A DNA stretch of 51,363 nt. Source: Candidatus Bathyarchaeota archaeon (GTDB lineage: Archaea > Thermoproteota > Bathyarchaeia > TCS64). Of this stretch, positions 11,131-47,114 are shown piece by piece (positions within the stretch are counted from its first letter, which is position 1; every line of letters starts with the position of its first letter). The stretch is from positions 1-51,363 of the forward strand of contig JADHWM010000004.1 of the NCBI GenBank assembly GCA_016783485.1, in the 5' to 3' direction. The notes beneath the pieces were generated by a model, which was not told where the DNA came from, made no database searches, and worked only from the letters and a program-made list of their open reading frames with translations. A program made the position numbers and the translations under genes.

Positions 11131-12033
11131 CTAGATCTCGATCCGCATCCCGTCGAAGGCTGCCTCGAACCCCCTTTCTTCGAGGATTGATGCAGCCTGG
11201 TGCCCAGGATCCAGCAACGGATTCGTGTGGTTGAGATGAGTGTAGACGACCCTCCCGATGCCCCTCCCCTGGAGGATCTCGACGCTCTCCTCCACGGGGA
11301 CGTGGCCCAGGTCGTACGAGGTCTTCGCCAATCCGCTGACCCTGGCCAGCTCGTCGTCCCACCAGAAGGTGGCGTCTAGCATGAAGAGGTCGGCTCCTTT
11401 CACCCGCGTCAGGACCTCGTCTGAGAGCCGCCCGATGTCGGGGGTGTAAATGAACCTCGCCCCGTCGGATTCGATCTCGTAGCCGTAGGTGCTGCTGGGG
11501 AAGTGTGATCCGTCGTCGAGCCTGTCGGTGTGCTCGATCTGGAACCCCGAGACCTTCAGTTCGGGCAGCGGCTCCACGGTCTTCTCCTCCTCGAGCTCGA
11601 TGGGCTTAACGTAGTTCCTAGCCAGCCTCCCTATGTCCCCGAAGAAACTGCACCTTCCCTGGGACCCGAACATGAACCTGATAAGGTCGGGAGGAGCGTA
11701 GACGGGGATGGAGAAGCTCTTTCCCGTCGAGAACTCAGCGACGCCGACGGTGTGATCCCCATGCCCGTGGGTCAGGAAGATGGCCTCTATCCTGCTCTGG
11801 CGTCCGTGCTCGGCCTCCTCCGGCCTGGGGGTGAGTCCGGTCTTCTCAAGCTGGAACTTGAGGTCTGGGGTGGCGTCAAAGAGAACCTGCTGCCCCCCGT
11901 CGATGGAGACAGCGACCGATGAGCGCGTCCTGCTTTGCCCCGAGGTCGTGCGCGCCCGGGTGCAGTTGTCGCAGCAGCAGTCCCACTGGGGGACGCCCCC
12001 GTTGGAGCCTGAGCCGAGAACTGTGACGATCAT
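11131..12033 (-). CDS. MBL-fold metallohydrolase (PqqB-like)
   Basis: MIVTVLGSGSNGGVPQWDCCCDNC and LTHGHGDHTVGV metallo-beta-lactamase motif. Confidence 0.8.
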   Translation of the reverse strand: MIVTVLGSGSNGGVPQWDCCCDNCTRARTTSGQSRTRSSVAVSIDGGQQVLFDATPDLKFQLEKTGLTPRPEEAEHGRQSRIEAIFLTHGHGDHTVGVAEFSTGKSFSIPVYAPPDLIRFMFGSQGRCSFFGDIGRLARNYVKPIELEEEKTVEPLPELKVSGFQIEHTDRLDDGSHFPSSTYGYEIESDGARFIYTPDIGRLSDEVLTRVKGADLFMLDATFWWDDELARVSGLAKTSYDLGHVPVEESVEILQGRGIGRVVYTHLNHTNPLLDPGHQAASILEERGFEAAFDGMRIEI

Positions 12034-31944: not shown

Positions 31945-32970
31945 GTGGAATCCCACAGGAAAATAGTCCAGACGTCGGTGAGTCACGTGGTTAAAAAGAA
32001 AGGACTAGCGCTCCTCTCGGGCGGTCTCGACAGCACCCTCGCAGTCAAGGCGATGGTGGACCAGGGAGTCGATATTGAGGCGGTCCACTTCACGACCCCG
32101 TTCTGCAACTGTGACAAGTGCTCCGTGGACCAGGTGGGTGAGCAGTTCAATATCCCCGTGCACCACCTCTTCATGGGACAGGATTTCCTGGACCTGCTGG
32201 CGGATCCCCCCCACGGATACGGGAGCCAGATGAACATCTGCATCGACTGCCGGATCCACATGTTCCAGAAGGCCAAGGAGCTTGGGGACGAGATCGGGGC
32301 CGAGTTCTACGTGACCGGGGAGGTCCTGGGCCAGCGCCCATTCAGCCAGCGGCGCAAAGCGATGGAGCTCATCGAGGCCAAAGCCGGGCTTAAGGGAAGA
32401 ATCCTGAGGCCCCTGTCGGCCAAGCTCATGGGGAAGACCGAGGTAGAGGAGGAGGGAGTCGTCGACAGGGAATCCCTTTACGCAATCCAGGGTCGCCGGA
32501 GGATCCCCCAGATGGAGCTCGCAGAGGAGCTCGGGGTCTACGACTACCCCTGCCCCAGCGGGGGCTGCCTCCTCACCGACCCCCAGTTCGCGAGGAAGCT
32601 CAGAGATTACATCAACCACGAGGGGAAGCCAGAGCTGGAGGACATGGTCCTCCTGCGTCTGGGCAGGCATTTCAGGCTCGGGCGGGCCAGGGCCATCGTG
32701 GGGAGGAACGAGACGGAGAACAATGTTCTCAGTGCCTTGGCCGAGAGGAAGGGATTCCCCCGTTTCGAGGTCACGGGTCACATGGGGCCCGTTTCGATTC
32801 TCATGGGGGAAGCCGAGGCGGAGGCCGTCGAGATGGTGGCCGCCCTCACCGCGAGGTACTCCGACGCGCCGAGGGATGAGGCCGTGGATGTCGAGTTCAA
32901 AGACGGTGACATCAGGGTCCTGAGGGTCTCCTCAATGGGTGACGAGGAGATCGAGAGTCTCAGGATTTGA
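31945..32970 (+). CDS. PP-loop thiouridylase-like protein (ThiI/MnmA-like)
   Basis: LLSGGLDSTLA PP-loop, FCNCDKC, NICIDCRIHMFQKAKELGDEIGAEFYVTGEVLGQRP. Confidence 0.75.
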   Translation: MESHRKIVQTSVSHVVKKKGLALLSGGLDSTLAVKAMVDQGVDIEAVHFTTPFCNCDKCSVDQVGEQFNIPVHHLFMGQDFLDLLADPPHGYGSQMNICIDCRIHMFQKAKELGDEIGAEFYVTGEVLGQRPFSQRRKAMELIEAKAGLKGRILRPLSAKLMGKTEVEEEGVVDRESLYAIQGRRRIPQMELAEELGVYDYPCPSGGCLLTDPQFARKLRDYINHEGKPELEDMVLLRLGRHFRLGRARAIVGRNETENNVLSALAERKGFPRFEVTGHMGPVSILMGEAEAEAVEMVAALTARYSDAPRDEAVDVEFKDGDIRVLRVSSMGDEEIESLRI

Positions 32971-33126
32971 GTCCCAACCCGCCGGTGATAACGCCTTCGA
33001 GGATAATCAACGCGAACTGAAACGACCTATTCCTTACTATGTGTACGATTTAATTCAGATTTTCTTTACACTCTGATTATTATTATGATAATTCTTATAA
33101 CTAAAGACAATATACTTCGTATGGCT

Positions 33127-33230
33127 GTTGGGCCCTCGAAGAAAGGGAATTGAGGCGGCGCCTTTGACCGCTGGTCATTTCTCTCGCCCCGGGGGGTAAC
33201 CTCATAAAACCCGCCTGCAGGGGGCCCAAC
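33127..33230 (+). ncRNA. Candidate structured RNA of about 104 nt (strand inferred)
   Basis: Perfect closing repeat GTTGGGCCC (33127-33135) / GGGCCCAAC (33222-33230); internal TGACC-GCT-GGTCA hairpin; GC-rich island preceded by TTATAA about 30 nt upstream. Confidence 0.5.
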
Positions 33231-33254
33231 CCGCTATTTCCCGTACAATAAGTC

Positions 33255-34067
33255 TCACTGGACTCTGGGATAGGAGCCCAGTATTTTGATGAAGTTGGTG
33301 GATTCTCTCAACTCTTCGAGGGCCTCCTGCATCAACGGCTCATCCCTGTGCGCCTCGATGTCGATGAAGAAGGTGTACTCCCAGGGCCTCCCGGGGATGG
33401 GACGGCTCTCGATCTTCTTCAGGTTGAGGCTCCTGCTGGCGAAGGCCCTTAGTGATTCGAGGAGTGTCCCCGGCCTGTGATCGACGATGTAGGCGATGGT
33501 GCTCTTGTCGTTGCCGGTAGGGCCTATATCCTCGTCTCCAATCACGAAGAACCTTGTATAGTTCTCATTGTCGGACTCCAGGCCGCGGGCGAGGACAGCC
33601 ATATCGTAGACCTCTGCAGCCCTGGTGCTCGCTATGGCGGCTGCATCGCGGAGGCCCTCGTCCCTGATCATCTTGACGCTCCCCGCCGTGTCGTACCAGG
33701 ACACCGCCTCGAGGCTGCGGCCATCCAGGTACGCGCGGCACTGACCCAGGGCCTGGTGGTGGGAGTAGACCCTCTTAACGTCCCCGAGGGTGACTCCCTT
33801 GTTCGCGATGAGGCAGTGGGTCACCCTGAGTACAGTCTCCCCCTGGACCTTCAGGCTCCGCTCCAGGAGGAGGTCGAATGTGCGGACTATGCTACCCTCG
33901 AGGGAGTTCTCCGCCGGGACCAGGCCCAGGTCCGCTTCCCCATTCTCCACGGCGTCGAAGACGTCCTTCAGGTACGGCCTGGGGACGGGCTGGGCTTTTT
34001 CCCCGAAGTGCATGATGATGGCCTCCTCGCTGTAGGCGCCGAACTCCCCCTGGAAAGCGACCCTCAT
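33255..34067 (-). CDS. pheA: Prephenate dehydratase
   Basis: MRVAFQGEFGAYSEEAI, SHHQALGQCRAYL, C-terminal ACT with KIESRPIPGRPWEYTFFID. Confidence 0.92.
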   Translation of the reverse strand: MRVAFQGEFGAYSEEAIIMHFGEKAQPVPRPYLKDVFDAVENGEADLGLVPAENSLEGSIVRTFDLLLERSLKVQGETVLRVTHCLIANKGVTLGDVKRVYSHHQALGQCRAYLDGRSLEAVSWYDTAGSVKMIRDEGLRDAAAIASTRAAEVYDMAVLARGLESDNENYTRFFVIGDEDIGPTGNDKSTIAYIVDHRPGTLLESLRAFASRSLNLKKIESRPIPGRPWEYTFFIDIEAHRDEPLMQEALEELRESTNFIKILGSYPRVQ

Positions 34068-46480: not shown

Positions 46481-46594
46481 ATCCTCAATGGGGTGAGTCC
46501 ATGAGAAGGGGGAGCTGGGCGGCAGCCCGGCTGAGAGGACGTTAATTCGTCGACCCTTTGAACCTGACCCAGGTAATACTGGCGGAGGGATAAG
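46481..46594 (+). promoter_or_regulatory. TPP riboswitch (THI element)
   Basis: CGGCTGAGAGGACG ... GACCCTTTGAACCTGACCCAGGTAATACTGGCGGAGGGATAAG matches the CUGAGA and ACCUGA-UCUGG-AUAAUACCAGCGNAGGGA core, directly before thiT. Confidence 0.93.
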
Positions 46595-46598
46595 AAAA

Positions 46599-47114
46599 AT
46601 GAGTGATAGCTTAAGCACGAAGGTTCTCGCAGAAGTAGCGATTCTGGTTGCATTGGCAACCGTCTTGAGTTACATACGGTTTGTAATGTTCCCGCAGGGG
46701 GGCAGTGTCACCCTTGCGAGCATGGTTCCACTGGTGATTCTATCATACAGGCGTGGCTGGAAAGTAGGAATATTCGCCTGCCTCGTCTATGGGCTTATAC
46801 AGTTCTATCAGGACCCGTGGATGCTGAACTGGGCGCAGTTCATCCTGGAATATCCTATAGCCTTTGGCGTAATAGGCTTGGCCGGCCTGTTCAAAGGAAA
46901 TGAGCTGATCGGTGCAGTCGTCGGCCTAGGGTTAAGATTCCTGGCCCACACGCTTGCTGGCGTAGTATTCTGGAGTGAATACGCCCCCCCGGGTATGTCT
47001 CCCGTACTCTACAGCGTCATCTACAACGGCTCCTACATGCTTCCGGAGATCGTCATAAGCGGGGTCTTCGTGTATGCACTATTGAAACGTGGCATCCTAG
47101 AGTTGAACCTCTAA
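46599..47114 (+). CDS. thiT: ECF thiamine transporter S component ThiT (YuaJ family)
   Basis: FPQGGSVTLASMVPLVILSYRRGWKVGI, LAHTLAGVVFWSEYAPPGMSPVLYSVIYNGSYMLPEIVI; TPP riboswitch upstream. Confidence 0.93.
   Translation: MSDSLSTKVLAEVAILVALATVLSYIRFVMFPQGGSVTLASMVPLVILSYRRGWKVGIFACLVYGLIQFYQDPWMLNWAQFILEYPIAFGVIGLAGLFKGNELIGAVVGLGLRFLAHTLAGVVFWSEYAPPGMSPVLYSVIYNGSYMLPEIVISGVFVYALLKRGILELNL

Follow-up and report, generated by a model that had tools for sequence, protein, structure and literature searches.

The stretch of DNA examined here (the window), 51,363 nucleotides from a Candidatus Bathyarchaeota archaeon, changes abruptly from AT-rich to GC-rich sequence between a PP-loop gene and the convergent 3' end of pheA, and the GC-rich segment is bracketed by a perfect 9-bp inverted repeat (GTTGGGCCC, 33127-33135, and GGGCCCAAC, 33222-33230); the question raised by this locus is whether the segment specifies an RNA in its own right and, if so, of what kind. 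The initial annotation, made from the window alone, had pointed out both features, had proposed a novel, possibly pseudoknotted RNA or else an element of the pheA 3' untranslated region, and had suggested a comparison with Rfam and a search for covariation in related archaeal genomes. The changeover in composition and the repeat are both present, and the repeat forms part of an 11-bp closing helix, P1 (Table 1). Folding energy is a poor guide to what lies within it: the z score is -2.1 for the plus strand of 33127-33230 and, for 33120-33240, -1.8 on the plus and -0.4 on the minus strand. Values of about -2, which a chance inverted repeat might produce, are too weak to serve as sole proof of structure, and we relied instead on comparative evidence.

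A search of the whole window with Rfam at the gathering cutoff returned one match, a TPP riboswitch located elsewhere, and no tRNA or tmRNA was found in the window. That riboswitch (RF00059, 59.5 bits; 46498-46607, plus strand) ends at the start of an open reading frame (46599-47114) whose product resembles a ThiT-type thiamine transporter. The element itself matched no Rfam model at E values up to 10. Relatives were sought among archaeal genomes by DNA search and then with covariance models. The DNA search located a second copy in the window's own genome (G000) on contig C110, with 81% identity over the core, as well as a copy in genome G012 with 82% identity; the three have in common UUGAGGCGGC...GCUGGUCAUU...AACCUCAUAAAA, and the sequence of the outer stem differs among archaeal copies, yet its pairing persists. 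With covariance models, eight copies were found in G001 and two near-identical ones in G011, G012 proved to hold two and G013 one; model R2, which includes the window copy among its building sequences, matches 33132-33223 with 74.8 bits and an E value of 1e-16. A third, damaged copy in G000 (C110:25922-26010, plus strand) lies about 450 bp from the intact C110 copy in the opposite orientation, and its broken pseudoknot suggests that it has likely decayed.

The archaeal distribution is narrow and unstable. Of the 27-28 genomes that belong to the same archaeal family, 5 carry the RNA, with one to eight copies each, and covariance models used with stricter filters gave no further match among 257 genomes of the class or 400 genomes drawn from the phylum. 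The lineage of this family is archaeal, since two of its members match the model for archaeal SRP RNA above cutoff. At the orthologous PP-loop/pheA locus, G001 retains just the last 34 nt of the RNA, and G002 retains P1 and P3 around a ruined core that the model does not recognize; the loss or wreckage of this copy in two sister species indicates that the window-locus copy has been present in the genus for a long time and can be dispensed with there. Two genes flanking a G012 copy on contig C196 resemble tyrosine recombinases by eye without a Pfam match, and we make no such claim for them.

The RNA also occurs on many viral contigs, most of them phage-like. When IMG/VR was searched with a degenerate core pattern, 65 contigs were retrieved, all of which match the covariance model at an E value of 1e-8 or better, and a looser pattern retrieved at least 110 viral stretches, while a control pattern of equal composition, the same pattern reversed, had no matches in the same collection. 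Almost every viral locus holds a single copy; L148 contains in addition a second, degenerate match at 11578-11653. No Rfam model matched 10 viral loci at the gathering cutoff or 15 viral loci at E values up to 1, and one viral copy searched at E values up to 10 gave two chance-level matches far below cutoff, so that neither the window element nor the viral loci tested can be assigned to any Rfam 15 family. Searches by blastn for named homologues among INPHARED phages and PLSDB plasmids, with a method insensitive for RNAs this short, returned chance matches or none, and the only named phages reached by tblastn with the flanking proteins were distant ones, all at less than 60% identity.

An alignment of 90 distinct archaeal and viral sequences (A7) was used to evaluate the fold. 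With the pseudoknot counted among them, the four core helices are paired in 97.5% of cells, compared with 72.6% in shuffled and 35 to 57% in slid versions; the alignment was fitted to a model that holds the nested helices, which are therefore somewhat favored, but the pseudoknot lies outside that model and is not. Cells in which both partners have changed number 441 against 123 in shuffles, with none of 500 shuffles as good, and 15 of 20 core pairs change on both sides; compensatory change thus exceeds both the shuffled and the slid controls. P4 is 94.7% paired, with changes on both sides in three of four pairs; the pseudoknot 99.1%, with more than 10 variants (including UGCGG/CCGCA, UGUGG/CCACA, UGUAG/CUACA, UGCGU/ACGCA, and UGUUU/AAACG); P2 98.9%, with an invariant CGG/CUG base and variable upper pairs; and P3 96.8%, with all six pairs changing on both sides. 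In a mutual information analysis blind to structure, the 12 top-ranked column pairs were all predicted pairs, three of them from the pseudoknot. The next-ranked columns, 88 and 119, with C-G in 51 viral copies and A-U in 7 from archaea, possibly form a tertiary pair. An unpaired A, GUYA (weighted frequencies of 0.99, 1.00, 0.95, and 1.00), UAA, and UAAAA are nearly invariant throughout the alignment; because the viral set was retrieved with a pattern fixing some bases (e.g., CGG, CUGGU, and UAAAA), their invariance is partly built in, but the archaeal set, found without that pattern, shows the same bases.

Table 1. Features of the RNA and its surroundings in the window
Feature	Position	Strand	Basis or remark
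Upstream neighbor: PP-loop/ThiI-type protein with NFACT-R_2 domain	31945..32970	+	Pfam
TATA element TTATAA of the RNA's putative own promoter	33095..33100	+	Ends 27 nt before P1
Whole structured RNA as closed by P1; predicted transcript about 104 nt	33127..33230	+	Covariance model and closing helix
P1 5' strand, GTTGGGCCCTC	33127..33137	+	Pairs with 33220-33230
J1/4, purine-rich internal loop GAAGAAA	33138..33144	+	Most copies A-rich, e.g., UAAACAAA in G012
P4 5' strand GGGA	33145..33148	+	Three pairs here plus A-C mismatch (A148 faces C187)
Pseudoknot 5' strand TGAGG	33151..33155	+	Pairs with CCTCA, 33200-33204
P2 hairpin: CGGCG (33156-33160), variable loop, CGCTG (33169-33173)	33156..33173	+	
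GUYA after P2, nearly invariant (GTCA here)	33174..33177	+	
J2/4, 7-10 nt segment	33178..33186	+	UUUCAUC-like in many phages, different in archaea
P4 3' strand CCCC	33187..33190	+	Pairs with 33145-33148
P3 hairpin: GGGGGG/CCCGCC (33191-33196 with 33210-33215), loop TAACCTCATAAAA	33191..33215	+	One G-G mismatch
Pseudoknot 3' strand CCTCA, within P3 loop	33200..33204	+	Covariation
Invariant UAAAA of P3 loop	33205..33209	+	Essentially 100% in 90 sequences
P1 3' strand	33220..33230	+	Pairs with 33127-33137
Downstream convergent neighbor: prephenate dehydratase, pheA	33255..34067	-	Pfam PDT and ACT

The comparative sequence evidence thus identifies the plus strand of 33127-33230 as a member of a family of structured RNAs that has no counterpart in Rfam. 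In the predicted fold, which covariation strongly supports, P1 closes the molecule, P4 encloses P2, and P3 stands alongside; the loop of P3 (UAA-NNN-CAUAAAA) pairs with UGNNN just 5' of P2 to give a pseudoknot set amid nearly invariant unpaired bases. The J2/4 sequence UUUCAUC of many viral copies is complementary to GAUGAAA, in which a start codon precedes AAA, and archaeal copies differ at this place. Among the four inner pairings proposed at the outset, TGAGG with CCTCA was correct and is the covarying pseudoknot, whereas TGACC with GGTCA, GGCGG with CCGCC, and AGAAA with TTTCT are not kept in relatives and have no place in the conserved fold. The central proposal of the initial annotation, a novel plus-strand RNA with a pseudoknot behind a TATA element, is supported by the covariation across the 90 sequences, by the want of any Rfam match, and by the conserved spacing of a TATA-like element in the archaeal copies. 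A chance repeat, or a 3' untranslated or terminator element of pheA, can be dismissed as having a negligible probability: the covariation and mutual information results refute it, almost all of the 90 sequences are unrelated to pheA, that gene adjoins no other copy examined, and the RNA lies on the strand opposite to it.

Signals around the archaeal copies point to independent transcription. The TTATAA noted initially upstream of the RNA is a TATA-like element at a spacing conserved among archaeal copies: in a scan of 14 such copies anchored on P4, 12 have a TATA-like hexamer inside the scored window of -55 to -35, compared with 0 or 1 of 14 in each other 20-nt window, and the hexamers range overall from -57 (L007) to -41. 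The eight G001 copies have in common an extended upstream motif, CCTTTAANCGGTGATG or a close variant, and some protein genes are preceded by it too. In the form (C)CTTTAANCGGTGATG, this promoter-like motif lies upstream of the eight copies and of other genes; G001 contains 30 matches to it and G013 contains 40, whereas a reversed control gave 1 and 8, respectively. Its loci include G001 contigs C3, C4, C41, and C46 (L020-L023) and G013 contigs C48, C72, and C99, and it may mark a shared regulon or a mobile-element promoter. Archaeal P1 duplexes are long, with a mean energy of -19.8 kcal/mol, whereas viral ones (-8.2 kcal/mol) barely exceed permuted flanks (about -7.5 kcal/mol). A convergent gene or open reading frame lies downstream of the window copy and of the copies at G001 C3:1941, G012 C235, G013 C69, and G000 C110, and the C110 copy is followed 3' by a small inverted repeat and then a T-run. 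The TATA spacing, the long P1 helices, and the convergent downstream genes together give the archaeal copies the appearance of separate transcription units, and we infer that the RNA is transcribed there from its own promoter as a free molecule of about 100 nt.

The viral copies are intergenic, often adjoin DNA polymerase or HNH genes, and have phage-typical neighbors (DNA polymerase, HNH endonuclease, Sak4, DUF2800, RecT, and terminase); about 8 or 9 of 92 flanking phage genes belong to HNH endonuclease PHROG families. On ten viral contigs (e.g., L113, L125, L128, L132, and L137), the gene just 5' of the RNA encodes a member of one family of HTH-HNH endonucleases of about 193 amino acids and stops 2 to 22 nt short of the RNA's conserved AUUG. 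The downstream gene is on the same strand in 62 of the 72 phage copies for which one could be called, and neither promoter nor terminator signals are strong (TATAAT-like sequences in 22/77 versus 10/77; T-runs in 15/78 versus 5/78); these properties, together with the weak viral P1, suggest that the phage copy may be part of an mRNA. One could regard the RNA as a cis-regulatory aptamer of phage operons, riboswitch-like or a protein-sensing leader, with the archaeal copies captured or repurposed. Pairing between a junction strand and the loop of the hairpin that follows, combined with numerous invariant unpaired bases, is a typical trait of RNAs that bind ligands; a PolA-family polymerase gene lies downstream of 13 to 15 copies; and in one phage group the 3' strand of P3 holds a Shine-Dalgarno-like AGGAG or GGAGG a few bases 5' of an ATG. 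We nevertheless consider this unlikely, if deserving of some weight, because the downstream genes are very diverse, a convergent gene faces some viral copies (e.g., L135 and L147) and, among archaeal copies, that of the window and several more, and two copies stand before tRNA genes. Downstream genes are also swappable at the P1 end: in 36 near-identical phage contigs (e.g., L043, L084, and L089), the RNA and its upstream gene are constant and are followed by three different downstream sequences, one encoding a 138-amino-acid protein, which start exactly where P1 ends, as if the end of the RNA were an insertion point.

The two copies upstream of tRNA genes, at a distance of 10 to 13 nt (L148, 13447-13547, minus strand; L057, 1734-1827, plus strand), recall the setting of phage theta ribozymes (PMC10879173), and self-cleavage that processes phage transcripts would suit the size of the core, its pseudoknot and many invariant loop bases, and a location between codirectional phage genes. 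The order of strands differs from that of the HDV-like fold, however, no Rfam ribozyme model matches, and cleavage would have no obvious use in archaeal copies with promoter signals, long closing stems, and convergent neighbors; we judge a ribozyme improbable. An intercistronic element governing mRNA stability or processing, with no partner beyond ribonucleases, is slightly more doubtful still. The P1 strands of one phage group do contain the stop codon of the upstream gene and the start codon of the downstream one, but unpaired bases that are nearly invariant from phages to archaea exceed the needs of a mere barrier, and the archaeal copies look like separate units.

The explanation that we favor, and that we hold to be about evenly balanced between right and wrong, is that of an RNA borne by mobile elements, free in archaea, and acting in trans through its invariant pseudoknotted core. 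The archaeal RNA would be produced from its own promoter. A widely conserved partner, more probably a protein or ribonucleoprotein than a small ligand, would dock on the core, and the P2 loop and the J2/4 segment would be free to vary. The RNA is not tied to one gene, since neighbors differ between loci, and its distribution, with gains and losses among archaeal genomes, is that expected of accessory cargo on phages and mobile elements; a role in the life cycle of the element or in conflict with the host would fit such a mode of spread better than would a housekeeping function. More tentatively, and with somewhat less than even confidence, we suggest that this is a new class of phage-borne RNA, carried by viruses of bacteria and present in archaea as promoter-driven genes, and that its nearly invariant core engages a factor conserved in bacteria and archaea alike. 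The setting might be a conflict between virus and host or between elements.

The family appears to be widespread and undescribed, and the novelty claimed here is that of the family; a literature search of incomplete coverage found no description of it, and an account outside Rfam may exist. A covarying RNA on more than 100 environmental virus contigs that is absent from Rfam would constitute a common, apparently undescribed part of phage biology, and its separate, quickly gained and lost archaeal copies would place it among the few structured RNAs common to phages and archaea. As a short, synthesizable molecule, it is a target for direct partner pull-down.

In the ZTP (pfl) riboswitch, a separate 3' hairpin has a loop that pairs with a junction strand of the first helical domain. 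The RNA described here has the same order of helices as RF01750 and the same junction-to-loop pseudoknot, a likeness of topology only, but the conserved aptamer sequence is absent, with no match to the RF01750 model, and the conserved bases differ; ZTP riboswitches, moreover, occupy the 5' untranslated region of the gene that they regulate, whereas the window copy faces convergent pheA and archaeal copies have no gene to control. Theta and other HDV-like ribozymes (PMC10879173) are likewise small pseudoknotted RNAs found in phages, but the nested double pseudoknot and conserved core of that class were not found here, where the 3' strand of the pseudoknot lies within a hairpin loop and most copies are not near tRNA genes. 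HNH genes beside some phage copies bring to mind the RNAs of RNA-guided nucleases (HEARO/IscB, TnpB reRNA, and RAGATH-18; PMC11061315), but most copies have no adjoining nuclease, no TnpB- or IscB-type partner was noticed beside the RNA, none occurs in the top PHROG families of the 92 immediately flanking phage genes, and no Rfam model of these RNAs matches. Type III toxin-antitoxin RNAs (ToxI; PMC5772629) are also pseudoknotted and linked to phages; the present RNA stands as a single copy at almost every viral locus, and neither tandem repeats nor a ToxN-like gene were noticed at the copies inspected. Stand-alone noncoding RNAs of phages and mobile elements identified by comparative genomics, such as the c4 antisense RNA (PMC2864571), are likewise phage-located, covarying, and mostly of unknown function, but no Rfam 15 member matches the present family, which occurs also in archaea as copies with promoter signals.
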